Source of the DNA: Ruegeria sp. TM1040
Lineage (GTDB): Bacteria; Pseudomonadota; Alphaproteobacteria; Rhodobacterales; Rhodobacteraceae
DNA length: 64,000 bases
Assembly: GCF_000014065.1 (NCBI RefSeq)
Contig: NC_008043.1
Coordinates: 62,001-126,000 of the forward strand
Direction: 5' to 3'
This document shows, piece after piece, positions 26,486 through 39,795 of the stretch; within the stretch, counting starts at the first letter, position 1; every line of letters starts with the position of its first letter. Below the pieces are notes generated by a model. It worked only from the letters and a program-made list of their open reading frames with translations, was not told the origin of the DNA and ran no database searches. Both the position numbers and the translations under genes were made by a program.

Positions 26486-27669
26486 ACAAATTGTCCGCAC
26501 CACGCGCCCAACATGCCGTCGACCCTGTGGAACTGACAGCCGACCTTGTACGCTGCCAGACCGTGACCCCCGAGGAAGGTAGTGCGCTTAAGCTGCTAAG
26601 CGCATTGCTGAGCGAGCATGGGTTTCAGTGTCAGCGCATTGATCGCAACGGTATTCCCAATCTATTTGCGATTTGGGGAGAGGACCGAAATGGACGCACA
26701 TTCGGGTTTAACGGTCATACCGATGTCGTTCCGATAGGCGATCCAAAAGACTGGACCGTCGATCCTTTTGGAGCAGAGATCCGTGACGGCATTCTCTACG
26801 GGCGCGGCTCAACGGACATGAAATCAGGCGTTGCGGCCTTTGCCGCGGCCGCCATCGAGTTTGTCAACGAAACACCACCTGATGGCCGCGTCATCATCGC
26901 GATCACAGGTGCCGAAGAAACCGGCTCGCCCGACGGGACACGAGCCATTGTCCAATGGATGGAGGCCAATGATATTCGGGCCGACCACTTTATCGTGGGC
27001 GAACCGACGAGCCTTAAGTCCATCGGGGACGCAATAAAGATCGGTCGCCGGGGAACGATCACGGTCTTTCTGACCGTGACTGGCGTGCAAGGCCATTCGG
27101 GATACCCGGAAAAAGCGAACAACCCGCTTCCTGCACTGGTCGATCTTTTGCAAGGTTTCGGGCAGGCGGCCATGGACGAAGGAACGGAATTTTTCGCGCC
27201 TTCAACACTTGCGATCACGACGATTGATACAGGCAATCCTGCACGCAACGTCATTCCTGCGACGTGCAAGGCGACCCTGAGCATCCGGTTCAACGACAAA
27301 TGGACCTCTGGGAAAGTCCTTGACTGGGTGTCCAGGCATACGCGCGCCGCCGAGGACAAGTTCGGTGTCACGATCAGTGCCGATCACTACCTGTCGGGAG
27401 AGTGTTTTTTCACACCGCCCGGGGCTCTTTCAAAGCTGGTTCAAGATGCCGTCGAACAGGAAACGGGACAAAGACCACAGATGACGACCCTCGGCGGCAG
27501 TTCCGATGCCCGCCACCTCTTCAAGCACTGCCCGGTAGTCGAGGTTGGTTTGACCGGCGAGACCTTGCACCAGGTGGATGAGCACGTCTCCGTGGCCGAA
27601 ATCAATGCGCTCAAGACCGTCTACGGCAGAATCTTACGGGACTACTTCGGGTCGGAGGGCAAGATATGA
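26482..27669 (+). CDS. M20 family deacylase/peptidase (DapE/ArgE-like)
   Basis: A 395-residue di-zinc amidohydrolase of the ArgE/DapE/carboxypeptidase G2 family. Metal-ligand and catalytic motifs are all present: GFNGHTDVVP (His), GRGSTDMKSG (bridging Asp), TGAEETGSPDG (catalytic Glu pair), VGEPTS, and the C-terminal HQVDEHV (His). The closest named homologue is succinyl-diaminopimelate desuccinylase, but its place in a transport operon, overlapping the ATPase and the CapA gene by four bases each, points to a catabolic N-acyl or peptide substrate rather than lysine biosynthesis. No signal peptide, so it acts on the imported compound in the cytoplasm. Confidence 0.87.
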   Translation: MNKLSAPRAQHAVDPVELTADLVRCQTVTPEEGSALKLLSALLSEHGFQCQRIDRNGIPNLFAIWGEDRNGRTFGFNGHTDVVPIGDPKDWTVDPFGAEIRDGILYGRGSTDMKSGVAAFAAAAIEFVNETPPDGRVIIAITGAEETGSPDGTRAIVQWMEANDIRADHFIVGEPTSLKSIGDAIKIGRRGTITVFLTVTGVQGHSGYPEKANNPLPALVDLLQGFGQAAMDEGTEFFAPSTLAITTIDTGNPARNVIPATCKATLSIRFNDKWTSGKVLDWVSRHTRAAEDKFGVTISADHYLSGECFFTPPGALSKLVQDAVEQETGQRPQMTTLGGSSDARHLFKHCPVVEVGLTGETLHQVDEHVSVAEINALKTVYGRILRDYFGSEGKI

Positions 27670-28961
27670 CCACTCTGGCCCTGACCGGTGACAGCATCCT
27701 GCAAAGGCGGCTTCTCAGCACGTCAGATCCGGTTATCAAACCTCTCTTTGATCTGATCCGTGGATGCGATGCGGCATTCACCAACCTCGAGGTCCTGCCG
27801 AACGATTATCGCGGCGATCCCGCTTTTGACAGCGGCGGGTCGCATTTCGGCGCGCCGTCATGGGTGCTGGATGATCTGGTCGAAGCCGGGTTCGGCATGT
27901 TTTCCACGGCGACAAACCATACGCTCGACTACTCCATCTCTGGGCTTGAATATGGGTTGGACCAACTCGACAAACGCGGCCTGTGCCACGCCGGGGCGGG
28001 ACGACACCTTGAGGAGGCCCGACGCGCCGCTTACCTTACAACGCCCAATGCGGCGATCGGCATGGTCGCTTGCGGGTCCACTTATACAAAGGGGCAGGAA
28101 GCCGCGCGCCAGACGGCAGCCATGCAGGGGCGACCCGGCCTGAACCCGCTGTGGCCCGACAGCACCTATGAGGTGACGGCAGAGCAAATGGCCGTCGTGA
28201 AAGAGATGGCCGAGGGGCTGGGCCTGGAGAAGTTCCGCCAGATCCGCATCAGCACGGGGTTTGCCTTCGAGGCCCCGGAGGGCATTTTTCCCTTCAATGG
28301 CATGAACTTCCGCGTAGGTGAGCAAACCCGCCATGTGCGCCATCCGAACCCCAAAGACTTGGCCGCGATCATCCGCTGGGTCGAAGAGGCTAAACTGGCC
28401 TCTGACATCGCACTGGTCAGCATCCATGCCCATGAACATGCCGATGAAAAGGACCAACCAGCGGATTTCATCGTCGAGTTCGCCCACGCGGTGATCGACG
28501 CGGGTGCCGACCTAGTCGTCGGCCACGGGCCGCACCTGCTGCGTGGCATGGAAATCTACAAGGGCAAACCGATTTTCTACAGTCTTGGCAATTTCATCGG
28601 TCAGAATGAAATGGTGCGGCAGCTGCCAGGCGAATCCTATGATCGCTTTCATGTCGATGACCGACTGACACCGACACAGCTCTATAAGCAGCGTACACTA
28701 GATGACCAGAAAGGCTTCCCTTCCGATGAACGCTATTGGCAGACTGTGGTCCCAATATGCCACTTTGAAGGGGACGGACTTGTCGATGTCGAAATCCATC
28801 CCGTTTCTCTTGGCCTGGGTGAGCAGCGTCACCGCAGGGGGCGTCCACGTTTGGCACATGGTGCCGAGGCTGAATCTATTCTCAACCGGTTTTCCTCGCT
28901 GTCGTACGAATTTGGATCAACGCTTGAGGTCGGTGACACCTGCGCCAATGCCGTTCTCTGA
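27666..28961 (+). CDS. CapA family metallophosphatase-fold protein
   Basis: A 431-residue protein of the CapA/PgsA family (metallo-dependent phosphatase fold), known from poly-gamma-glutamate synthesis or release. Typical motifs are ALTGDSILQRR at the start, FTNLEVLP near residue 38, TATNHTLDYSISGLEYGLDQ near residue 80, SIHAHEHADE (about 257) and HGPHLLRGMEIYKGKPI followed by FYSLGNFIG (about 285-310). There is no signal peptide or membrane helix, unlike PgsA proteins, so it is cytoplasmic. Four-base overlap with the DapE-like gene suggests joint action on an imported compound, perhaps a gamma-glutamyl or similar peptide; this is inference. Last gene of the operon. Confidence 0.85.
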   Translation: MTTLALTGDSILQRRLLSTSDPVIKPLFDLIRGCDAAFTNLEVLPNDYRGDPAFDSGGSHFGAPSWVLDDLVEAGFGMFSTATNHTLDYSISGLEYGLDQLDKRGLCHAGAGRHLEEARRAAYLTTPNAAIGMVACGSTYTKGQEAARQTAAMQGRPGLNPLWPDSTYEVTAEQMAVVKEMAEGLGLEKFRQIRISTGFAFEAPEGIFPFNGMNFRVGEQTRHVRHPNPKDLAAIIRWVEEAKLASDIALVSIHAHEHADEKDQPADFIVEFAHAVIDAGADLVVGHGPHLLRGMEIYKGKPIFYSLGNFIGQNEMVRQLPGESYDRFHVDDRLTPTQLYKQRTLDDQKGFPSDERYWQTVVPICHFEGDGLVDVEIHPVSLGLGEQRHRRGRPRLAHGAEAESILNRFSSLSYEFGSTLEVGDTCANAVL

Positions 28962-29338
28962 GGGTGCCCGCTCCATTCGAAACATCGCGCATCTTAGATT
29001 TAGGGCGATGTCCATTAGGATTGCGCAAGAGCCTTGTAAAGTTCGCACAGCTACCTGTTCTTGAGTACAAACGTGGTCGAGGCTTTAAAGCAATGGCTTC
29101 AATCTAACCTGTTGGACTGCGTGCCATTCATTGCGTATCAGTCCCTGCTATTTGCCTTGTGATGAGTTCTCTGAATTGTCTTGGCCGTTGTGAACAAGCG
29201 GACCTTGGTGCAGCGCGCGGCATCGGTCAAAATGGGCTCGGAGCCGACCTCAGTGGCAGCGCAGCAACCTGTGATACATTGGACAGGTCAACGTCGGGTT
29301 GTCGTTGTGGGCGGGAATGGCGGATCGGAGGATCAGTC
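28962..29338. other. Left edge of the genomic island
   Basis: No gene is supported between the CapA stop and the integrase. Base composition changes to more AT-rich here. No copy of the tRNA-Arg 3' end was found, so an attachment site could not be placed. Confidence 0.4.
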
Positions 29339-29971
29339 ATGCAAACACCAAACTTACCAGCCATTCGCGCACTTCGCCCAGCTTGGAACAAGGGCCGCAT
29401 TGTGGGTCAGAAACGGCCGCTGAAGCCAAAGCACGTCTGGGCGATCCGTGTCCGACTTGAACTGGCCGAGAACCATCGAGACCTCGCGCTGTTCAATATG
29501 GCCATCGACAGCAAGCTGCGCGGCTGTGACTTGGTGAAGATGAAAGTCGTCGACGTCATGGCGTCTGGTCTGATCAAAGAACGGGCATCGGTGCTACAAA
29601 GTAAGACACAGAAGCCTGTGCGATTTGAGATATCCGAAGGCACACGCGCCTCGATAGAAAAGTGGATGGAAGATGAGCTCATGGTCGGCTCGGAGTACCT
29701 TTGGCCGGGTCGGTTCCATGAACGCCTGCACATCTCGACACGCCAGTATGCCCGGATCGTCCGGGATTGGGTCACGTCGATCGGTCTGGAGGCCAGCGCA
29801 TACGGAACGCATTCGATGCGGAGGACAAAAGTCACACAGATATACAAGAAGACCGGCAACCTGAGGGCGGTCCAGCTGCTACTTGGGCACACCAAGATGG
29901 ACAGCACCGTCAGATATCTGGGTGTTGAACTCGAAGACGCGCTAGCAATCGCGGAGGCCATTGAAATTTAA
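29339..29971 (+). CDS. Tyrosine site-specific recombinase (integrase)
   Basis: A 210-residue tyrosine recombinase with the full catalytic set: R61 (KLRGCDL), HSMRR with H158 and R161, LLGHT with H184, and Y193. There is almost no N-terminal core-binding domain, which makes it a short catalytic-domain type widespread in Proteobacterial accessory DNA. ATG 29339 has GGAGG upstream (cggatcggaggatc); a longer frame starting at 29159 has no family similarity and is rejected. It sits at the start of the island and points into it. A perfect hairpin follows. Its target site is unknown. Confidence 0.9.
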   Translation: MQTPNLPAIRALRPAWNKGRIVGQKRPLKPKHVWAIRVRLELAENHRDLALFNMAIDSKLRGCDLVKMKVVDVMASGLIKERASVLQSKTQKPVRFEISEGTRASIEKWMEDELMVGSEYLWPGRFHERLHISTRQYARIVRDWVTSIGLEASAYGTHSMRRTKVTQIYKKTGNLRAVQLLLGHTKMDSTVRYLGVELEDALAIAEAIEI

Positions 29972-29975
29972 CAAC

Positions 29976-30001
29976 TTGGGCCGTCTTCAGGGACGGCCCA
30001 A
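29976..30001 (+). terminator. Perfect hairpin after the integrase
   Basis: Ten-base arms TTGGGCCGTC (29976-29985) and GACGGCCCAA (29992-30001), six-base loop, then AGCTGCCTTTC. A terminator with a poor T-tract, or a recombination-site structure. Confidence 0.5.
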
Positions 30002-30029
30002 AGCTGCCTTTCATTGATAGGTAACAAGC

Positions 30030-30042
30030 TGCGGCGCAGCAT
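30030..30042. repeat. GCTGC-rich palindrome motif of the island repeat family
   Basis: GCTGCGGCGCAGC palindrome in the gap before the DUF429-like gene; the related GCTGCGGTGCAGC occurs at about 31022-31034, in the gap before the HEPN-like gene. Confidence 0.4.
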
Positions 30043-30140
30043 CTGAAACCTCACATTCAGCCCCTTGCACAGCAACTTCGCCCAAGGGAAGGTAGCAGAT
30101 GATGCAAACGATCCAACTGCTACAATGATAAGGCTTAGGC

Positions 30141-30704
30141 ATGACAGTGTTTCTTGGTTACGACCCTGGAGGAAAAGGCAAAAACGGTGTAGCTGCCATT
30201 CGGGTAATCTCTGACGAACCTGAGGTCGTGGCCAAAGCTACTGTTCGCGATGCTGCCGAGGCACTGTCTTGGTTGGAGGACTATGCAAAAACGGCGGTTG
30301 CACTCGGCATAGATACCCTCCTGGCTTGGTCACCTAAGGGCGGGCGGGCCTGCGATGATGCGCTACGACGGAAATATGGCGGCAATTCGGTTGTTGCTCA
30401 GAACTCCTTATACAGTTCTATGACCTTGAATGGTGCGATTGTGGCAAAGCGGCTCGGATTACCCGTCTACGAAAGCCACCCCAAGCTGTTGCTTCGCGTA
30501 TCTAGCGAGAATGGGATCCGCGAGATCTATGACGACGCAGTGTCCGCCACGGAAGCAGATCATGAGGGGGACGCTATCGTAGCGGCTTGGTGCGCAGCCA
30601 TGGGACATAGTCGCAAATGGGCCGTTGATCTCTATATGGACGTTGAAGATGACATAGAACTCGTGGTGCCGGAAGCTCGCTACCCTTGGTTTGAGAAGAT
30701 CTGA
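30141..30704 (+). CDS. DUF429-like RNase H-fold protein
   Basis: A 187-residue protein of unknown function. Three acidic positions are arranged as in RNase H/RuvC-like folds: FLGYDPGGKGKNGVAAI at the first strand (D8), GIDTLLAWSPKGGR near residue 57, and ADHEGDAIVAAWCA near residue 145, the last resembling the DALVAA helix of DUF429 proteins. It may be a nuclease or an inactive relative. There is no signal peptide. It is the first cargo gene after the integrase, on the same strand, and is followed by a copy of the degenerate repeat. Assignment to the fold rests on motif pattern only. Confidence 0.55.
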   Translation: MTVFLGYDPGGKGKNGVAAIRVISDEPEVVAKATVRDAAEALSWLEDYAKTAVALGIDTLLAWSPKGGRACDDALRRKYGGNSVVAQNSLYSSMTLNGAIVAKRLGLPVYESHPKLLLRVSSENGIREIYDDAVSATEADHEGDAIVAAWCAAMGHSRKWAVDLYMDVEDDIELVVPEARYPWFEKI

Positions 30705-30754
30705 CGCGAGTCAGCCCATTGCATCATTAGGCTAGCGCACGAGATTGTCGCGTC

Positions 30755-30937
30755 CGGCCCTTAGCCGACATTCACGCTAGGCGCGGCCAATAACCGGTAT
30801 CAGCCCATTATGACATTCGTCCATGCCGCAGCGAAGGGGATGCTGCGAGTACGAAGGGCTTCCCCAAAGCAGACCTTCAAGCTTGCACAGTTGACCCAGA
30901 CGGTGCTGCATCCGGCTTCAAGGTCAGCGAAGCGCAG
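30755..30937. repeat. Degenerate island repeat, copy A
   Basis: About 183 bases that align over their whole length with copy B at 31650-31833 (same orientation, roughly three quarters identity by eye). Shared blocks include CGGCCCTTAGCCGA, ACCGGTATCAGCCC, TGACATTC and CTGCTGCGAG-like segments, ending at CGAAGCGCAG. It fills the gap 30705-31111 with no gene. A and B flank the HEPN-like gene. Confidence 0.7.
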
Positions 30938-31111
30938 AGAATGATCTTTGCAAAGTCGCAGTGACCAGCCAGGCCCGCAGAGGTTACCGGCCCAAAGCTG
31001 ACCTTGACATGGGAAACGAAAGCTGCGGTGCAGCTTCCCAAAAGCGGACAAATACCAAATGACAAGGCAGAGTTGTCATCGAACAAGCTTAAGCTGTAGC
31101 CTGGCGAGAAT

Positions 31112-31603
31112 ATGTGGGAGGCTGACTTGGACGAAGAAATCGCAAATTTCATGCTTTTGGCTGCCAAGTTAGAGTTCTTTTTGGTCAATCTCGACCAAAC
31201 CTTTGCCCATGTGGATGGAAAGACACGGGTGGTTAGGGGCATCAACTGGGACCGGATCGGTCAATCATTGGAAGTCAAGCATCCTTTCAGCGGATTTGAT
31301 TTCGCAGGATCGGGGTTTCAGATCTTCAAAGAAACGACGCCTCAACTTCTGGTAGCCAAAGAAGGTGGCGGGTTGAAATGGGACAGTGATGAAATCGAAG
31401 TTTCGTCTTGGCAGATATTGTTGGGGCGTAGCTATGCTCAGCTTCGGAACAATGTTGCACACGGAAACAAGGCTCAGCTCTCGGCACCTTTCACACATGA
31501 TCGAACAAGGGAGTTTCTCGAAGCTGGGCGCCACCTGATCCACTTTCTTGCGGGAGCACATTCATCGGATGACACTTGGAGTTACGCAGTCCAGTTCCAT
31601 TAG
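31112..31603 (+). CDS. HEPN-like protein with an RNxxxH motif
   Basis: A 163-residue, mostly helical protein with no family I can name. Near the C-terminus it has LRNNVAHGNK (R112 to H117), the Rx4H motif that forms the catalytic site of HEPN ribonucleases in toxins, abortive-infection proteins and CRISPR effectors; a final helix (REFLEAGRHLIHFLAG) follows as in HEPN folds. A GGCGAG stretch precedes the ATG. No antitoxin gene is adjacent. It lies between direct repeats A and B like a cassette. Ribonuclease activity is inference from the motif. Confidence 0.5.
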   Translation: MWEADLDEEIANFMLLAAKLEFFLVNLDQTFAHVDGKTRVVRGINWDRIGQSLEVKHPFSGFDFAGSGFQIFKETTPQLLVAKEGGGLKWDSDEIEVSSWQILLGRSYAQLRNNVAHGNKAQLSAPFTHDRTREFLEAGRHLIHFLAGAHSSDDTWSYAVQFH

Positions 31604-31649
31604 CGTGCTCACCGTATCGCGGAAGATCCTCAGGCCATCAAATCGCGGA

Positions 31650-31833
31650 CGGCCCTTAGCCGATATTCACGCCAGGCGCGGCAGATGACCGGTATCAGCC
31701 CAAACTTGACATTCATGCAAGGCGCAGCAAAGGGGCTGCTGCGAGCGCGAGCGTCTTACTGAAAGCGGACCTTCAAGTCTGCTCAGCTAATCCAAGCTAT
31801 GCTTCACCCTAGACTGATGTCCACGAAGCGCAG
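31650..31833. repeat. Degenerate island repeat, copy B
   Basis: Direct copy of repeat A (30755-30937), 184 bases. The rest of the gap to 31986 shows no gene. Confidence 0.7.
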
Positions 31834-31986
31834 TTAGCGACATTTGAAAAGTGCTGGCGACAGCTGCTGGGCGAAGGCAACATGCTGTACAAGCAATGGA
31901 AGCAGCATACCTTTGCCGTAGGTGCAGCCCCGACCATCATCGAACGGAAGGGACGTGGGACAAAGCGCCCTTCAATGGGGCGCACT

Positions 31987-32586
31987 TCAAGGTCTAGTTA
32001 ATGTTCCGGTGGCGAAATCGTAGACGAAAAAATGACGCCCAAACCAGCTAAGCACTGTGGCCTCTGTCCCAATTGTCTTACCGTAAACGTCTGAGAAAGT
32101 GACTTTCAGCTCAATTGCCATCAGCGCCCTTCGGGTCGTGTCCCTTTGAGCGCTGAACTCTGCATCTTCTGGGTCACCTGTTAACTTCAAAAGGGCTAGC
32201 TCGCCTCCTGCCCTTATGGTTTTCCCGCATGGGTTTCCGGAAAATGCGTTCCAAGTTGCAACAACTTGTTTATCTGACATTTGCTCGATCAAAGAATTGG
32301 TAATATTTCCTGTATTGCTGCACTTGACCGTAAAGGCGTCAATTCTCATGGGCCCCACACCGGCATTCATAAGCCGAATTGATATTTCATCTTCAAAATC
32401 ACCATAGACAAAGTTTGCAATAGGTCGAACCGATAGTCGATTATGCTGTCTCTGAACCGAGAGTGAATATATGCTGAGAAATATCGCAACCAATGCGGCT
32501 ACGGACGCTCCCAGTGCGGAAAGAGCTGAGAGGGTGGCGGAACTCTTAGTTGCAAATTCCAAAATAACTTCAATCAATTCCCGCAC
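31987..32586 (-). CDS. Membrane-anchored hypothetical protein
   Basis: A 199-residue protein that I do not recognise. It has one strong membrane helix at about residues 20-44 (LSALGASVAALVAIFLSIYS) followed by QRQHNRLSVRP, a pattern seen in several short membrane-anchored proteins of accessory regions. The rest looks beta-rich (for example SIRLMNAGVGPMRIDAFTV) and contains two Cys. It lies alone between repeat copies B and C and opposite in strand to the HEPN-like gene. Codon use is less GC-rich than the core genes, consistent with transfer. Possible role as a membrane effector is speculation. Confidence 0.55.
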   Translation of the reverse strand: MRELIEVILEFATKSSATLSALSALGASVAALVAIFLSIYSLSVQRQHNRLSVRPIANFVYGDFEDEISIRLMNAGVGPMRIDAFTVKCSNTGNITNSLIEQMSDKQVVATWNAFSGNPCGKTIRAGGELALLKLTGDPEDAEFSAQRDTTRRALMAIELKVTFSDVYGKTIGTEATVLSWFGRHFFVYDFATGTLTRP

Positions 32587-32741
32587 CCCATGATGCGTCT
32601 TACGTTATCGGCAAATGCCGATCAGAGCATCCAACATATCTACGTCACCGCGAGGCTTCGATGATCTACGAATCGAAAACTACAACGGTTCTTTATCCTA
32701 GCTGTCATTTGTTCAAAGCGCAGCATCTGTTGCCCTGGACT

Positions 32742-32823
32742 CGAAGCCGACTTGCGGCAGCGCGGCGCCGGGTTGCTGGGAAACCGCACTTGGTCTCCGC
32801 CGCCAGATGACGCCAGCCAGCCC
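32742..32823 (-). repeat. Degenerate island repeat, copy C (inverted relative to D)
   Basis: The reverse complement aligns with copy D at 35406-35488: GGGCTGGCTGGCGTCATCT, then a diverged middle, then GCCGCAAGTCGGCTT. It lies in the gap 32587-33142, which holds no gene. Further downstream (about 32940-32990) the gap contains GCGAAGCGCA and GGACTTTGCAAAGTC, blocks also present near repeat A. Confidence 0.65.
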
Positions 32824-33142
32824 TTTTGAGACATTCGCACCAGGCCCAGCGCGCACTCCGCTGCAGACGCGAATTGTCGGGGGCGTTTGCCCTAAAGCGG
32901 CCCTTCGTCGGCCCCGGTGAACGCTCCCCAATGCTGCGACCAGCACAAGCGTCTGCGAAGCGCATAAACGGACTTTGCAAAGTCGGAGCTGGCAGAATCC
33001 TGTGAAGGAGACGTGTCACCATGTGGTTATCTAAGCGCATCACGTCGTATGACTGATCTGCAATCGAAACCGGTCGTTTGCGGTGGCACTCAAACCTGTC
33101 TTTCTTTTGAAAATCTTGGTAGCCTCCAGCAGACCCTGTCTT

Positions 33143-34261
33143 CTAGACGCTCTCAAATCGGCTCAAGACCCGAGCAATGCGCGCCTGATCGTCCTGAGAC
33201 AGAACATACATTGTGAATCCTGGACATTCCCCGATGGATCGCCGCAATAGGTGCGTCAAAGCCATCAGATTCTTTTGCTGATGCGAATTGAAGGTCGTCA
33301 AAGCCTCTTCCAGCTCATCTTCTGTATGCTTGCTAACGAATTTAAAAAACTTGCCAAGAAGGCCTGTGATGGCGTCCGACACTTGTATCCATGCGTGCTG
33401 CTTGGAATTCACGAACGAGAAGTGTGTCGCTGGACTGCCGCCGTCGTGAAGGTCGAGGCCTCTCAGAAAATTGGCGATCTGTGGTTCGATGTCTAGGATG
33501 TGTGTGGCGTTGCGGAACAAGGCGATCCTGTGCAGATAAAAGTCACCGAAACCATTGATAAGTATGTTTGGCTTTTCATCCTCGAGATAGGGAAGCCGCC
33601 GAAGGCGCGCCCCGACCCGCAGCACTTCCCTGAGGAACAGGTAATGCTGAGCTGGCAAAACACTCCGGCGTTCATCGAGCATCGCACCAAGCTCGGCGAT
33701 GAACTCGCATCGGCGTGCTCTGCCCACATCGGGGAAGTTGAACCGTCCCAAGAGCGCGGCCGTGGTGTCAAGATCAGTGCGCAGTACGGCGTACAAGGCG
33801 TTTTTGAGCATCGCATGAGCCATCATTAGGTTGACATCCCGCTGCTCGGTAAGGATGGAATCGATCACATCGACAATTGACCAGTAAAGTGGATCGAGCA
33901 CCTGAAAGTGGACGAACAGTTCGTTACGAACAAGCCAGTGAAGGAATGCGGTAATCTTCTTTGACTTGAGTAGGGCGGAGAAGTCGCCGTTGCCGAGCTG
34001 ATTTAATTTCAACTCAGAAGCAGATCTCTGGAGGTGGAATTCGTGGCTCAATGATGAAAAGTCGAGATGCGGTGCTCTTCCACGGTGTGCCACCCCTCCG
34101 AGCACAAAGAAGTCTGGCCTGCAGACATTCAGACCATCGGGTGTGAGGAACAGAGTCCTGATGTTGTTCGTTTCGTCGTAATGCAGCGTATAAGCCTGGT
34201 TGACGTTGGGCAGTTCGTGCCAAGCTAAAATCGTTTTCCGGATCGCTTCAAGGTTTGTCAT
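33143..34261 (-). CDS. DUF3800-like protein (large member of a tandem pair)
   Basis: A 372-residue protein. It begins with the DUF3800-style strand YTLHYDETNN (D29, E30) and FFVLGGVAH, and near the C-terminus has HAWIQVSDAITGLLGKFF (D296), matching the QVADxxxG helix that closes the DUF3800/RNase H-like site. The middle is helical and unfamiliar. Function unknown; DUF3800 proteins occur in defence and mobile regions and are predicted nucleases. It follows a smaller DUF3800 gene on the same strand by 144 bases, so the two probably act together. The assignment is from motif pattern, less sure than for the neighbour. Confidence 0.55.
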   Translation of the reverse strand: MTNLEAIRKTILAWHELPNVNQAYTLHYDETNNIRTLFLTPDGLNVCRPDFFVLGGVAHRGRAPHLDFSSLSHEFHLQRSASELKLNQLGNGDFSALLKSKKITAFLHWLVRNELFVHFQVLDPLYWSIVDVIDSILTEQRDVNLMMAHAMLKNALYAVLRTDLDTTAALLGRFNFPDVGRARRCEFIAELGAMLDERRSVLPAQHYLFLREVLRVGARLRRLPYLEDEKPNILINGFGDFYLHRIALFRNATHILDIEPQIANFLRGLDLHDGGSPATHFSFVNSKQHAWIQVSDAITGLLGKFFKFVSKHTEDELEEALTTFNSHQQKNLMALTHLLRRSIGECPGFTMYVLSQDDQARIARVLSRFESV

Positions 34262-34405
34262 ATGGACCTCGCTGAAGGCGCTAAATCGCCCTAAATCAAA
34301 ACTTGAAATTAACCGGTATATGCGTATGTTTGCACCAAAGGTTCCCCTCTGATGAAAGAACCCAAGGGTGTTCTCCAGAAATGGTAGTCAGGGGGGTCGC
34401 ACTCC

Positions 34406-35101
34406 CTAATAATAGTGGCGCGTACCGGTCCGAAAGATGTCGAACTCTGTGCGGATTTGAGGTGCGACTTTGGAGTGGGAAGATGGGTCTTTATGCTCCC
34501 ACTTTCTGTAGATCGCCCAGTTGAAGTAGTCCGCGACCTGAAGCCCGTAGTGCGCGGCGGACGGGTGGTGCATCAAGCGATATGGTGTGCCCGTTGGAAG
34601 CATTTTGGGAAGGGATGTCTTGATGCCCTTTTCAATGGCTCGTTTCTTTTTCTTCACGGGAATACTGTCAGTGATCACGACAACCTCACCAATTGCCCCC
34701 GGCGCCTTATCAACGGCGTACCGCAGAAGATAGCCCAGCATCCTCGGGTAGAACTCTTCCGGAGGCCGTAGGGCTGGACCCGTCTTGCTTTTCTCGACAA
34801 TGACTGCGTCGACGGAATTGGCAGGCACCTGAGCGGAAAGCATGTCAAACACCTTACTTCGGACATGCGGGTTGTCGTAGGCGCAGTGAAAATGATCCAT
34901 CGCAATGCGAGGTTTGATCCGGTGCTCGATCAGGTTGTACTTGAACGTATCTAAATCTGTGTGGAGCGTGAATGGGCGAAACAAGCTAACACATGTCAGA
35001 GTAAAGTATTTCGACCCCCTCAGCGAAAAGTCGAAGTTGCCTCCCTCGTCGAGGAAAATGTATAGGCTGGGCAGTGCTGGTGCGCTAGAAGTAATCGGCA
35101 T
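34406..35101 (-). CDS. DUF3800 domain protein (small member of a tandem pair)
   Basis: A 231-residue DUF3800 protein. The N-terminal strand is LYIFLDEGGNFDF (D18, E19), and a helix near the C-terminus is HYGLQVADYFNWAIYRKWE (D191), together the typical acidic residues of this predicted RNase H-like family. A further conserved pair is EVVVITDSIPVKKKK near residue 140 (Asp in an RNase H-type strand, then basic residues). Transcribed before the larger DUF3800-like gene. No toxin or methylase is adjacent. Nuclease activity is predicted, not shown. Confidence 0.75.
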   Translation of the reverse strand: MPITSSAPALPSLYIFLDEGGNFDFSLRGSKYFTLTCVSLFRPFTLHTDLDTFKYNLIEHRIKPRIAMDHFHCAYDNPHVRSKVFDMLSAQVPANSVDAVIVEKSKTGPALRPPEEFYPRMLGYLLRYAVDKAPGAIGEVVVITDSIPVKKKKRAIEKGIKTSLPKMLPTGTPYRLMHHPSAAHYGLQVADYFNWAIYRKWEHKDPSSHSKVAPQIRTEFDIFRTGTRHYY

Positions 35102-35932
35102 CTGTGAATTGAACTTTTACTGACTGGCTCTCGGAAATGAGATTTCTTGTAGGGGCTCGTGGCAACAGGGTAAAGTGCCCGCCAGCTCTCCAGGACAAAG
35201 TTAGACGAGCATGGCCCACAACTAACCCCTCCTCCATCCTATTCAGTATTGCAACTAACTTGGCCCGGACCTCATTTTGCGCGATCAGCCAAAGTCCGCT
35301 TCGTTGTGAATAGCCGACATTGACGTGGACTGATAGGAACTTATGCAACCTACACAGTATACCGTTTCTTTCCACTGATCGAGAAATGAAGAGCACGTCC
35401 GCTTTGGGCTGGCTGGCGTCATCTAGCGGCTGGGACGAGGCGCGGGTTCACTGCGCCCTGGTTGCCGCAGCGCCGCAAGTCGGCTTTGAACCCATAACTG
35501 ACCTTGGGTTGCAGCTACGCAGCTCGGCCAATTGCGGATTGATGTGTTGTCAGTGAATGTCCGCTCACCGAAGGATCCAATGCCCTCCCTTGATGAACCA
35601 TGCGGCCCGGGCATTCTCTTACGGTTGCGAATTACCTACCGGGCCATGGCATGCTGCAGAACGCCCTGCTGTACGTGACGGCGGCTTACCTGCCCACAGG
35701 GCCTGTCCGATGCAATGAACAGCAAGCAAGTGGGGGCATTTCTCACCAGGCAGTGAAGTGGTCAAGTAGAACGAAATGTACGATGTGGCCGAAGACCTCG
35801 ATCAATACGTGCTGCCCGCCGTTCACCGGTCGCGACAGCGTGGCTACTTCAAGCCACGCTTAGAAAGAACAACAGGATAAGTGGGACGACCTTCTCTGCA
35901 GGCAGCTTGACGTCCGGGCGCAAGTGCGCGCC
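35102..35932. other. Gap with repeat copy D and unassigned remnants
   Basis: About 830 bases without a supported gene. It contains repeat copy D. A short open stretch ending at 35879 (from the ATG at about 35776, 34 codons) has no family and no ribosome site. It may be the decayed end of a lost gene. Confidence 0.4.
35406..35488 (+). repeat. Degenerate island repeat, copy D
   Basis: About 83 bases matching copy C in inverted orientation (see 32742-32823). C and D lie on either side of the DUF3800-like gene pair, so the pair is bounded by inverted repeats. Confidence 0.65.
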
Positions 35933-36112
35933 TCAGTCTGCGTGTGCTTCTTCGGCTCTAGCCTTTTCCGCGGCGGCAAACATATTCTTAACGGTCTGTT
36001 GGCTCCGGTCCTTCACAGACATCTTTTGGGACTCGCCATACCGCTCTGGAATGGACGAACCGGTAATCCGATTGACGGCTTTGTCCTTCAACTTGACATT
36101 TATCCTACGCAT
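35933..36112 (-). CDS. Small basic protein coupled to the Ntn-hydrolase gene
   Basis: A 59-residue, highly charged protein (starts MRRINVKLKDKAVN, ends AEKARAEEAHAD). Its ATG overlaps the end of the upstream Ntn-hydrolase gene by eight bases and is preceded by AGGGG eight bases away, so translational coupling is likely and the frame is not a shadow. No family is recognised. The sequence is probably partly disordered with a C-terminal Ala/Glu helix. Being co-produced with a proteasome-like hydrolase, it could be a substrate, regulator or adaptor; this is speculation. Confidence 0.55.
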   Translation of the reverse strand: MRRINVKLKDKAVNRITGSSIPERYGESQKMSVKDRSQQTVKNMFAAAEKARAEEAHAD

Positions 36113-37355
36113 CTTGGTTCCCCTGATACCTTTGGTTGCGCCTTTCCATGAAATCTCTGTTGAATTCAACATCAAAGTAGTGCTTTCGCTTTGTCCAGAC
36201 AAACCCGTCCGACTTTGAGATAATCGCAACGTCGACAGGGCCACCTACAGTCTCAAGTGATGAATCCATCTTTCTCCGCAAAGAGGTAATCTCCACAAGA
36301 GCCTCAGCCATAGCCGCCATTTCCTCTTTGGGTAGAGAGTTTACCACTTTTAGAAGGTTGGCGACAGATTCGTCGTGCCGATATTGTTTGAAGTCGGTTG
36401 AAAACTGCTTAACCATAGCGCGGTTGGCTTTCTTTTGCCGTTCCATTTCGACAACGCGATCTGGTTCTGGGACATAGTCTTTAACAAGTTCTGCAGTTTT
36501 CAGGTCGAGGGTCTGCAGAAGGGTCTGTCGAGTATAACTCAGATATTGTGGTAGCGTACCTTCCACAAAAAGATTGGCTACATCGGCTTGTGCGAAAGGG
36601 AGGATGGCGCCAGAAGTTCCGCCTTCATTCATGTTGTTTTCACGAACCTGCCAGGCTCTGACCTTCCCTTCTAATTCGCCATCGACACACATTTCGATAA
36701 CGACAGGCAGGAGTTCCGAGTCGCCATATCCGGCGAAGACAACCCCCGTCTCGAACTTCGTTTCGAAAGCTCTCCGCGACCGTTCGTAGCAAAGCGTTAT
36801 CATCTTGGAGTGCATGGTCTGGGTGACATGCATTCCAAGCTCTTCCGCCATAAACTCTTTGATCTTTTGGGAGTGTTTCTTGCGGTACTGATCACGAGAG
36901 TATCCGTCGAAGAGGAGGGGATAGTGATCCGCTTCTTCGATTTTCTCGGAGATTGCAGCGATAAGCTGTTGGCGACGTTTTAGCGAACCACTGGCAGTCA
37001 TAGCTTTTTGGGTCTGGCTGATGGCGTTAAGGATTATGTACCATCCGGTCAAATCGGCCAGCGGTGTTGGAGGAACAACCAAGTCGTCCAAAAAACCCAG
37101 AAAGCGCCCAACATACTCTTCTACCCTGGAGTATGTTGTTTTCCCGAGGCTTTTTCTAAATTCCTTAATCACAACTTCCCAAGGCAAGCCGCAGTAGTCC
37201 CCGCTTCCGAAGACCATGACTGCAACGTCGTTTGATGGTGCTAGATGAAAAAGTTTGTTGGAGTTCTTCCATACCCGGTCGCGGCCGATCGTTACGGCGC
37301 TGTCGGCGGCCAGAGCGATGCCCGACCTATTAATAATTGCGACCTCTGCAGTCAT
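36105..37355 (-). CDS. Proteasome/HslV-like N-terminal nucleophile hydrolase with long C-terminal extension
   Basis: A 416-residue protein. After removal of Met the N-terminus is Thr, and the start reads TAEVAIINRSGIALAADSAV. Numbering Thr as 1, Asp is 17 (AADS) and Lys is 33 (NSNKLFHL), exactly the Thr1-Asp17-Lys33 spacing of proteasome beta subunits and HslV. A later strand VVFAGYGDSELLPVV (about 205-220) resembles the fifth-helix/strand region of the fold. About 150 residues of helical extension follow, ending in GGPVDVAIISKSDGFVW. There is no ATPase partner nearby. It lies in the island between repeats D and E, with a coupled 59-residue gene downstream. Threonine-peptidase activity is inference. 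Confidence 0.7.
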   Translation of the reverse strand: MTAEVAIINRSGIALAADSAVTIGRDRVWKNSNKLFHLAPSNDVAVMVFGSGDYCGLPWEVVIKEFRKSLGKTTYSRVEEYVGRFLGFLDDLVVPPTPLADLTGWYIILNAISQTQKAMTASGSLKRRQQLIAAISEKIEEADHYPLLFDGYSRDQYRKKHSQKIKEFMAEELGMHVTQTMHSKMITLCYERSRRAFETKFETGVVFAGYGDSELLPVVIEMCVDGELEGKVRAWQVRENNMNEGGTSGAILPFAQADVANLFVEGTLPQYLSYTRQTLLQTLDLKTAELVKDYVPEPDRVVEMERQKKANRAMVKQFSTDFKQYRHDESVANLLKVVNSLPKEEMAAMAEALVEITSLRRKMDSSLETVGGPVDVAIISKSDGFVWTKRKHYFDVEFNRDFMERRNQRYQGNQDA

Positions 37356-37835
37356 AATGCGAATCCAGTATCAAAAGTTCTTGCGAAGCAATTTTTTCAG
37401 AGAGGGTATTAGATGTCGAGACATGGCAGTCAACAACACAGCATTTCGATGGTGGTGGGATGCCGTTCAGCGACTTCCAGAAAGGATGGCTGGAGGCGCA
37501 CGATGTGGAGGCGACTGAGAAGCCACCGACGCGGCGCAACCGGCAACCGGCGACCAAGCCCTCTGACCGCGCCAGAGCTGAAAGTGGACTTTGACTAAAT
37601 CTGATCGCCACTGATCAGGAGCATAATTTTTCAGCTGCAGCGAAAGTCCGCAATGTCCGCTTAGCCGACATCTAAGGGTTTTCGGCGGCCGCACGTGCGG
37701 CGAAGGGCAGCTTTTCCTTATGCGCCTGCGGCAGTGAGTGCTCGCCATGCCGCCAGGTCCGAAGACTTTGCAAAGCTCACTATCTGCGCAGAGCTGCCGT
37801 CCTCACATGACACAACACCGGTTAATGTGGACTCG
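37356..37835. other. Gap with a diverged island repeat (copy E)
   Basis: No gene. Between about 37640 and 37800 it has CTTAGCCGACAT, GCGGCGAAGGGCAGC and GAAGACTTTGCAAAG, blocks related to repeats A-C, so it looks like a further decayed copy. Confidence 0.45.
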
Positions 37836-38130
37836 TGCTCATCAACAGAGCGCATCATCCCGCGGGCCTCGAAGTGCTTGAAGCGGGACTAGCGCAGGTT
37901 GTCGAAGGACTCGCCTTTGTCGTCGGTGTCTGCAGGGAAAATGCTTCGGGACGTGGGGGTACCCTGGTCCTCGGAATTGCGTTCTTCTACGGTGTGCAAA
38001 TCGTCAAGCCGCTCAATGAACATGAGGAAAGTCAGCTGTTCGATCACACGGAGAGCGGGTTGGAGGCCTCACCAGACCAGAATGCGTTCCAGATCTGATC
38101 GATCTGACTTTTGATAGTGCCTGTAATCAC
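37836..38130 (-). pseudogene. hsdM N-terminal remnant (type I restriction-modification methyltransferase)
   Basis: Translated from GTG 38130, the minus strand reads VITGTIKSQIDQIWNAFWSG and SNPLSV, the classic start of HsdM. A one-base frameshift at about 38045-38050 then shifts the frame into IEQLTFLMFIERLDDLHT and IFPADTDDKGESFDNLR, followed by an in-frame TAG (37889-37891) where the family has Trp, then SRFKHFE and VDEH, where similarity stops near 37836. The methylation domain (NPPF) is absent, as are hsdS and hsdR. The gene is dead: a frameshift, a stop and a 3' deletion. It shows that the island once carried a type I restriction system. Confidence 0.8.
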
Positions 38131-38359
38131 CGGGAGCCCGCTACAAACTCGGCCCGATCATAAGTCTTGCGTACGCAAGCGCAACACGCATACCGTCAGG
38201 GCGAAGTGGGAAAGGCTGTTACTCCTTCCCTTTCGCCGGACAGAGTTAGGTCCAGTTTTGCGCCCGGCAGTACATTCTCAGTTCAACGTTAGCTGGCATC
38301 GTGATGTGCTACCCAACGTGCCCTCGGCCGTTGTTAGAATTTCCGCGGTTCCATCAGGT

Positions 38360-39193
38360 TCACGGGCTGGTGTCGTGAACTGATTTCATCAGGTCTGCCG
38401 GGACCTTGTTCCCGATAGCCCCGTGCGGGCGTTCTTCATTGTAGTCTCTACGCCAAGCCTCCAACTTTTCGGCTGCATCTTCAAGGCTCATGAACCAGTG
38501 CGCGTTCAGGCACTCCGCCCGGAACCGGCCATTGAACGCCTCGATGAAGGCGTTGTCGGTAGGTTTGCCCGGACGGGAGAAGTCCAATGTCACGTCGTTG
38601 GCATAGGCCCAAAGGTCCATATCCTTGGAGATGAACTCGCTGCCCTGGTCAACACGGATGGTGGCTGGGTAGCCGGTGCGCTTGCATACTTGCTCAAGCG
38701 TCGCGACCACGTCCTCCCCGCGATATGTGAACCGAGCATCAAGCACCGGGACATAGCGTGAGAAGGTGTCGACGACCGTCAGAACCCGAAGTTTCCAGCC
38801 TGTAGCCAGCTGATCATGAACAAAGTCCATAGCCCAGACGTCATTGGGGCTGACAGCCTCCTTGCGGTCATCCCGCAGCTTGGCCTTCACCCGGCGCTTA
38901 GGTGTCTTGCTCCGAAGTTGCATACCCAACTCCTTGTAAATGCGATAGGTCTTCTTGGCGTTGATCTCCCAGCCCTCCCGGCGCAGCAGCACATGCACGC
39001 GCCTGTAGCCGAAGCGCACGCGCGTCTGGCAAATCTCTCGTATCCGCTGTTCCAAAGCGGCCTGCCCAGGCCGGCGGGATTTGTAGCGATAGGTTCTCGG
39101 ATCGAACCGGATCACCTCGCAGGCCCGGCGGATCGACACCTGCCAATCCGCCCGCATCCCGTCGACCAGCGACCTTTTCCGGGCAGGCCTCAA
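38360..39193 (-). CDS. IS3-family transposase OrfB (DDE integrase)
   Basis: A 277-residue rve-type transposase with the DDE triad: D in WAMDFVHDQ, D in RVDQGSEF, and E in DNAFIEAFNGRFR. The N-terminal HTH_21 region is present (RFGYRRVHVLLRREGW). It looks intact. The start used here is TTG 39193, overlapping the orfA stop by four bases (TTGA); in most IS3 elements OrfB is made instead as a fusion by -1 frameshifting. Confidence 0.93.
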   Translation of the reverse strand: MRPARKRSLVDGMRADWQVSIRRACEVIRFDPRTYRYKSRRPGQAALEQRIREICQTRVRFGYRRVHVLLRREGWEINAKKTYRIYKELGMQLRSKTPKRRVKAKLRDDRKEAVSPNDVWAMDFVHDQLATGWKLRVLTVVDTFSRYVPVLDARFTYRGEDVVATLEQVCKRTGYPATIRVDQGSEFISKDMDLWAYANDVTLDFSRPGKPTDNAFIEAFNGRFRAECLNAHWFMSLEDAAEKLEAWRRDYNEERPHGAIGNKVPADLMKSVHDTSP

Positions 39194-39456
39194 AGCTTTC
39201 GCTTAATGACGTCCTGCAGCATTTCCTTGTCGAGCGCGAGATCCGCGACGATCTTCTTCAGACGCGCGTTCTCCTGCTCGAGTTCCCTGAGCCGTTTCAT
39301 CTCGGATGGCATCAGGCCAGCATATTTTTTCTTCCAGTTGAAAAATGTCGCCGTGCTGATCCCGGCCTTGCGGCAGACCTCGGCCACCGAGGTGCCGTCC
39401 TCCGCCTGCTTGATGATGAACGCCTTCTGCGCGTCCGTGAACTTCGATGCCTTCAT
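39190..39456 (-). CDS. IS3-family transposase OrfA (helix-turn-helix)
   Basis: An 88-residue IS3/IS911-type OrfA. The HTH spans about residues 5-50 (GTSVAEVCRKAGISTATFFNWK), followed by a leucine-zipper-like coiled coil (LRELEQENARLKKIVADL). It binds the element ends and partners OrfB. Overlaps OrfB by four bases. Confidence 0.92.
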   Translation of the reverse strand: MKASKFTDAQKAFIIKQAEDGTSVAEVCRKAGISTATFFNWKKKYAGLMPSEMKRLRELEQENARLKKIVADLALDKEMLQDVIKRKL

Positions 39457-39718
39457 GCGTTTCCGCTCCTCTCCCAGCCAGGGTTTCTCTGCGGAAAACT
39501 CTAATCAAAAACGGGGGCGTTTTCGGGGATCACATCAACAAAAGCTCCGACCAGCCACACTTTGGCAACAAACACGGCTTTTAGACTGCACGCTTTTTGC
39601 ACACCTTTGACCCCATACAGACCGGTTTTTCACCTTAAAAGGCGGTAAAACGCACTAAAAGGAGCGAATGCGGAAAGCACATAGATGCTGGAATTGTACA
39701 ATAAAATCATATGCTTAA

Positions 39719-39795
39719 TGGCGACCCCGGCAGGATTCGAACCTGCAACCTGCCCCTTAGGAGGGGGCTGCTCTATCCAGTTGAGCCACGGGGCC
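39719..39795 (-). tRNA. tRNA-Arg (anticodon CCT)
   Basis: On the minus strand the sequence folds as a cloverleaf: acceptor GGCCCCG (39795-39789) with CGGGGTC (39729-39723, one G-U pair), discriminator G and encoded CCA; anticodon stem CCCC/GGGG around CTCCTAA, giving CCT; T loop GGTTCGAATCC. Its 3' end faces the island, the usual side for integration. Confidence 0.95.

Follow-up and report, generated by a model that had tools for sequence, protein, structure and literature searches.

What does a proteasome-like hydrolase do when it is encoded on a genomic island, with no ATPase nearby and in overlap with a gene for a protein of 59 residues? The question is raised by a locus of Ruegeria sp. 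TM1040, whose genome amounts to 4.15 Mb in three contigs. The 64,000-nucleotide stretch of DNA analysed here (the window, to which all positions refer) lies on contig C2. The gene for the proteasome-like Ntn-hydrolase, of 416 amino acids, occupies positions 36105..37355 on the minus strand and is assigned from PHROG 5990, its alignment, its model and Foldseek. On the same strand, positions 35933..36112 encode a small basic partner of 59 amino acids, recognised by a family profile and by homologs in locus L045 and, weakly, L038. Both open reading frames (ORFs) lie exactly where the first-pass annotation had put them, and their positions confirm that they share eight bases (36105..36112, minus strand), an overlap that suggests translational coupling of the enzyme and the small protein. 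The most upstream start of the small ORF also precedes the stop of the big gene in 71 of 112 relatives with a picked small ORF, a count that is inflated since the picks use the most upstream allowed start. Building on the fold, active-site conservation, widespread pairing and mobility computed here, we favor with moderate confidence the reading that the locus is a mobile module, in which a PMI-type proteasome-like threonine hydrolase is coupled to a small protein acting as its dedicated regulator. Most of what had been read from the DNA at first stands, including the Ntn fold, the catalytic residues, the conserved partner, the missing ATPase and the mobile island; a C-terminal extension and the novelty of the enzyme do not.

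The active site of the enzyme is highly conserved. Numbered after removal of the initiator Met, the protein starts with Thr1 and carries Asp17 and Lys33. These residues were invariant in 14 of 14 sequences of a first alignment and show no variation in a larger one (113 of 113 relatives), drawn from 121 representatives of which eight were left out. The proposed Thr start with Asp17 and Lys33 therefore holds, and the homologs, in which a lack of conservation had been named as the sign of a wrong assignment, keep all three residues. Also invariant across the 113 sequences, in the same numbering, are Ala15, Ser18, a C-terminal VGGP.DV motif, Gly383, Trp386 and Lys390. The residue next to the initiator Met is Thr in 171 of 172 proteins; the sole exception (L042) starts at the catalytic Thr, the match being cut there. 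Thr is a permissive second residue for Met aminopeptidase. No propeptide is predicted, and Met removal would expose Thr1.

An AlphaFold2 model built on the 113-sequence alignment (pLDDT 93.3, pTM 0.91) provided the structural check that had been proposed for the Ntn fold, and its elements follow the proteasome order plus two additions. The first insertion comprises four helices (residues 98-193) after H1/H2, and the second is a 44-residue helix (297-340) between H3 and H4. The extra helices are thus internal. The helical C-terminal extension described in the first-pass annotation was a misreading, since the model ends in two strands (374-380 and 384-389) followed by a short helix. The best Foldseek matches in the PDB are 20S proteasome chains (E 1.4e-5, probability 1.00), which from their chain letters we take to be beta-type. 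Anbu appears from rank 16 onward (E 1.6e-4), and all of the 50 best matches are either 20S proteasome or Anbu at probability 1.00. The best match has a TM-score of about 0.29 by query and 0.56 by target with an rmsd of 16 A; we attribute the low TM-scores to the insertions, which make up a large share of the enzyme. Among viral models, a phage protein that bears the name proteasome beta type-2 scores best (E 3.3e-5). A PDB search with the single sequence gave noise only, and a profile search was needed: with the family profile the best match is the Thermoplasma proteasome beta subunit (E 0.0028 over 18 residues), closely followed by unrelated helical proteins at E 0.0075 upward. Since helical proteins score nearly as well by sequence, it is the fold and the active site that carry the argument, and both indicate a proteasome beta-type Ntn fold with a conserved catalytic set. 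The label 'hydrolase' is likewise a prediction from fold and active site.

Family searches place the enzyme in PHROG 5990 (E 7.4e-91), a cluster of 'unknown function'; it is the same protein family, but its label gives neither a function nor a partner. For a homolog from a phage, PHROG gives a match to 'peptidase HslV family' (E 0.0033). Neither the enzyme nor the small protein matched NCBIfam or PADLOC at E <= 1, and Pfam returned only noise. In particular, the enzyme has no match to PF00227 at E <= 1, and a search of the whole genome with that model returned two other genes only. This miss does not exclude membership, since in the available text of Fuchs et al. the homologs described there also needed iterative search.

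The enzyme itself is not new. Fuchs, Alva and Lupas described 22 new proteasome homologs in 2021 (PMC8665760). In PMI-3 and PMI-4 of that set, insertions follow H1/H2 and separate H3 from H4; in the available part of the paper, Table 1 assigns phages to PMI-4 alone among the PMI types. The enzyme studied here has both insertion sites, its family is found across many bacterial phyla as well as in archaea and phages, and the enzyme of the window is of the PMI type, most likely PMI-4, whose described features it matches. The novelty implied by the first-pass annotation is therefore not borne out, the family having been published (PMC8665760). With PMI-4 and PMI-3 the enzyme shares Thr1/Asp17/Lys33, the lack of a propeptide, both insertion sites and the lack of an AAA+ partner, and with PMI-4 its spread over bacteria, archaea and phages. 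It differs from PMI-4 and PMI-3 as published in its small partner gene, of which the available text makes no mention (PMC8665760), and PMI proteins are described there as having no genomic context suggestive of function. Among the papers listed from the accessible literature, a body that excludes preprints and most subscription papers, there was no PMI follow-up and no partner gene; a 2026 review lists Fuchs et al. among its references and does not mention Anbu in its available passages (PMC13022661). The new part is the pair, not the enzyme, and a conserved partner gene is the missing handle on the function of these context-less PMI homologs.

The enzyme resembles HslV (ClpQ) and the proteasome beta subunit in fold and catalytic residues, but it is about twice as long, has added helical insertions, lacks an HslU-type neighbor and has a small coupled partner. 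HslU, whose presence beside the gene marks membership in HslV, is not found there. The genome does contain two further genes of the proteasome family, and one of these has an HslU-like ATPase as its neighbor. AAA+ ATPases were searched for at E <= 0.001; nine places match PF07724 and 22 match PF00004, all of them on contig C3 and none on contig C2, which agrees with the earlier remark that no HslU- or ARC-like ATPase is nearby. Anbu also has a proteasome-like fold without a known ATPase and is among the best structural matches, but its extra element is a C-terminal helix according to the available text (PMC8665760), whereas the extra helices of the enzyme are internal. How proteasome relatives that lack an ATPase choose their substrates and stay safe is the wider question on which the pair bears.

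The family is widely distributed. The enzyme gene was found by tblastn in nine plasmid records and in 13 phage records, which include Streptococcus satellite phages and phages of Providencia, Porphyromonas and Stenotrophomonas. A profile scan detected 426 relatives among 84,980 species genomes and relatives in 174 viral contigs of IMG/VR; the best 80 of each set were examined. The best 80 of the 426 genome relatives cover many bacterial phyla as well as archaea (Altarchaeum, Methanoperedenaceae, Thermococcaceae, Methanosaeta, Thermoplasmata, Woesearchaeota and others), although some archaeal host names may be wrong since most archaeal loci are metagenome bins. Within the class, 16 of 385 genomes carry the enzyme gene, the genome of the window included. 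The gene can also be lost, as indicated by a copy in Rhizobium leguminosarum TpK that looks frame-disrupted (L037 5001-6251) and by a copy split into two open frames in another genome (G040, loci L010 and L019).

Does the small gene belong to the enzyme? It was sought as an ORF of 45-95 amino acids that shares the strand of the big gene and has its start no more than 70 bases before, or 40 bases after, the stop of that gene. Such an ORF is present in 101 of 113 representative loci, so that the small gene, whose conservation had been proposed as a check, is found with most relatives. The simplest alternative is that it is a chance or unrelated neighbor and the enzyme acts alone. An ORF passing the same rule follows 26% of the other genes of at least 200 amino acids in these loci (197 of 757), and a few relatives have no recognisable small gene, two of them (L098 and L107) for no evident technical reason. 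Homology among the small ORFs speaks strongly against chance. A profile of 27 small proteins, searched against the 41,340 six-frame ORFs of all loci, gave 35 matches at E <= 0.01, all adjoining the big gene, while the first non-adjacent ORF scored E 1.5. The 35 are the 27 training sequences and eight new ones, of which L089 and L123 come from loci close to training loci. When each training sequence was left out in turn, the adjacent ORF was recovered at E < 0.01 in 25 of 27 cases (misses L050 and L105). Each of 16 whole genomes has exactly one match at E < 0.001, beside the big gene, and the next best match in any of them is at E 0.0186. Thirteen of these genomes contributed training sequences (L049, L061 and L102 did not), and for those 13 the news is the absence of further copies.

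The profiles also cross the boundary between domains. One trained on bacteria detected the small gene in seven of nine archaeal loci at E < 1e-7, with L084 at E 1.1 and L070 missed, where the contig ends; one trained on archaea reached E < 0.01 in 17 of 20 bacterial loci and about 0.02 in two others. The small protein of the window itself shares 24 identities in 54 positions with that of L045 (scoring 54 where shuffled sequences reach at most 19) and 15 in 59 with that of L038, where the score of 36 is barely above the shuffled maximum of 33. In both comparisons third codon positions hold most of the differences (against L045, 26, 14 and 35 at positions one, two and three), a bias that also speaks against a chance or unrelated neighbor. 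Given the single adjacent matches in whole genomes and the detection between bacteria and archaea, the chance-neighbor explanation is nearly refuted and we regard it as extremely improbable. The small gene is real, and it is conserved beside the enzyme gene across bacteria, archaea and phages. It is annotated directly after the big gene in five fetched records (a Providencia phage, a Porphyromonas phage, an Enterococcus plasmid and the satellites Javan468 and Javan160) and unannotated in seven (L031, L032, L034, L035, L037, L216 and L221), although an unannotated small ORF is present in L034 and L035; the records of L029 and L036 end at the big gene.

The properties of the small proteins were counted on picks made by a crude rule in 112 of the 121 representatives. 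Some picks (L039, L059, L110, L031 and L190) look wrong by eye; the same 112 underlie the counts of motifs, charge and divergence, starts and last residues, with L039 replaced in the last two. The median length is 62 amino acids and the median net charge +4, the protein of the window having +5, and no membrane segment was found in the picked proteins. In the commonest form a motif such as E-F-E-K-K-F-F-P-K-S is followed by a helix. An aromatic-hydrophobic-Pro motif, [FYW][FYINLV]P, occurs in 38 of the 112 picks, compared with a mean of 4.2 and a maximum of 11 after shuffling and with 9% of 5,156 other short ORFs; it is absent from the small protein of the window. The copy from L071 was modelled as three helices with Pro opening the second (pLDDT 82.5, pTM 0.36). 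The small proteins diverge faster than their enzymes, with a median identity of 34.7% where the enzymes are 60-70% identical. A small helical protein that is basic, has no membrane segment and diverges fast is what would be expected of a partner-dependent protein. Profile searches with the small protein against Pfam and the PDB gave nothing credible, and no natural fusion with the enzyme occurs in the loci examined.

A small, divergent and basic partner on mobile carriers would also suit a toxin-antitoxin-like pair, in which the free enzyme is harmful and the small protein is an antitoxin released by phage or stress. At this locus, however, the enzyme gene comes first, and most toxin-antitoxin pairs have the other gene order, the toxin not being first. 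We consider this reading rather unlikely.

Alternatively, the enzyme might be a ligase or processing enzyme, acylated at Thr1, with the small protein joined or cleaved as its specific substrate. The precedent is connectase, a proteasome-like monomer that according to the available text is a ligase and not a protease (PMC8665760). Connectase shares with the enzyme a proteasome-like fold plus an insertion, and the substrate could be the product of a dedicated small gene; the insertion of connectase is placed at S3/S4 in that text (PMC8665760), however, and those of the enzyme lie at other sites. The connectase recognition motif, KDPGA, is found in 0 of the 112 picked small proteins, and no single residue prevails at their last position (K stands there in 26 of 112). 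We consider a ligase or processing enzyme improbable.

A third possibility is that the small protein is a degradation tag like Pup, or that the enzyme serves bacterial ubiquitin-like cassettes as their protease. Pup has a GG[EQ] C-terminal ending, which is present in 0 of the 112 small proteins. In favor of a link to cassettes, Multi_ubiq and ThiF genes lie within about 4 kb of the enzyme gene in five loci, namely those of the Rhizobium plasmids L035, L037 and L216, of Mesorhizobium (L031) and of a Gemmatimonadetes MAG (L113). An E2 domain is fused in L035 and L031, JAB-ThiF is found in L035, and DUF6527 in L035, L216 and L113; in L113 the cassette is on the same strand as the enzyme gene and ends about 0.7 kb upstream. 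Across the 385 class genomes, however, 16 have the enzyme gene, 11 have Multi_ubiq and one has both, on different contigs, against 0.46 expected by simple proportion. The ubiquitin link was accordingly marked down, co-occurrence not being beyond chance, four of the five loci being rhizobial plasmids and three sharing one layout, and a degradation tag is very doubtful. On the rhizobial plasmids the cassette is followed by a gene annotated as Clp protease proteolytic subunit, of the SDH type by Pfam (L035 10597-11157).

We thus return to the small protein as a dedicated regulator of the enzyme. The coupled translation and the strict pairing point to a stable complex, and since the small gene accompanies the enzyme in most relatives its product probably controls the enzyme. 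Made by coupled translation, the small protein would probably bind the enzyme physically and directly, and then hold it inactive, complete its assembly or deliver its substrates, thereby filling the role that a propeptide, an Ump1-like chaperone or an ATPase cap has in proteasome relatives. With no AAA+ unfoldase encoded beside it, the enzyme would carry out proteolysis independently of an ATPase. The PMI family has been described but left uncharacterised, and to our knowledge none of its proteins has a measured activity. The two helical insertions probably prevent the usual stacked, capped barrel; that they may block normal stacked rings follows the argument made in the available text of Fuchs et al. 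(PMC8665760).

The module is mobile: it is carried by phages, satellites and plasmids, and in the window it lies on an island at a tRNA-Arg gene. The island placement of the first-pass annotation is supported by a low G+C content (about 0.52, compared with 0.57-0.64 in most of the window), by a phage-type tyrosine integrase (29159..29971, plus strand; PF00589, E 1.3e-16) and by a homology boundary at tRNA-Arg(CCT) (39719..39795, minus strand), which is the conserved island edge in same-genus genomes. All 17 same-genus genomes contain the tRNA-Arg/LacI side; in the 11 of them where the alignment extends as far as the tRNA, homology begins at positions 39713-39719, the 3' end of the tRNA. The enzyme gene is absent from all 17 of these other genomes, one of which (G414) is only 67% complete. 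The left edge of the island was sought and not found, and no 14-base copy of the tRNA-Arg 3' region that could represent an attachment-site repeat occurs elsewhere in the window. The genus-variable stretch within 27666-39719 exceeds its low-GC part: none of the 17 same-genus genomes searched has the segment 27666-28961, which holds a PGA_cap gene. A two-ORF transposase, IS3-type by our reading, lies between the enzyme gene and the tRNA (38360..39456, minus strand; PF00665/PF13683 and PF01527).

Beyond the small gene, the module has no conserved third partner among neighbors of at least 80 amino acids in 120 loci. The commonest neighbor families occur in nine loci, then seven, then five; from their sequences we take them to be resolvase-like (nine), DnaC-like (seven), and type I methylase-like and repressor-like (five). 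In the Streptococcus satellite phages L029, L219, L220 and L221 the enzyme gene is directly preceded by two small genes that all four share, the second of them annotated 'putative transcription regulator' and HigA-like by our reading.

Phages and satellites are reported, in the available text of one study, to carry hotspots of antiviral systems (PMC9122126), and the carriers of the module, namely phages, satellites, plasmids and a tRNA island, fit a selfish or a defensive role. As cargo of phages, satellites and islands, the module would serve in phage conflict or stress. Of 362 candidate proteins within 3.5 kb of the module, 148 were sampled, and PADLOC matched 193 families among them; the 150 sampled from 222 candidates at a distance of more than 6 kb gave 182 families. 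These figures count families and not proteins hit, and both sets may lie inside islands. Because no enrichment of PADLOC families near the module was seen, we keep a defence role as a plausible hypothesis, which the phage and satellite carriers make directly testable. A broader picture, which we consider unlikely, is that of an old, mobile and ATPase-free conflict effector of the proteasome family, spread over bacteria, archaea, phages and their satellites and functional solely together with its cognate small helical protein, which would block or aim it until infection triggers the cleavage of selected proteins; in some lineages it would be wired to a bacterial ubiquitin-like cassette, and if true, those lineages would show a prokaryotic echo of ubiquitin plus proteasome.

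The nuclease-like genes that had been noted beside the enzyme gene proved to be of two kinds. One is a DUF3800 gene (34406..35101, minus strand; PF12686, E 8e-10; PADLOC DUF3800_VII, E 2.9e-7), in line with that description. The other (33143..34261, minus strand) is only a PADLOC defence candidate, PDC-S51 (E 1.7e-101), and weakly DUF3800-like, its match to PF12686 (E 0.003) being below the cut-off. Adjacent on the minus strand, these two genes (33143-35101) may form a separate defence pair.
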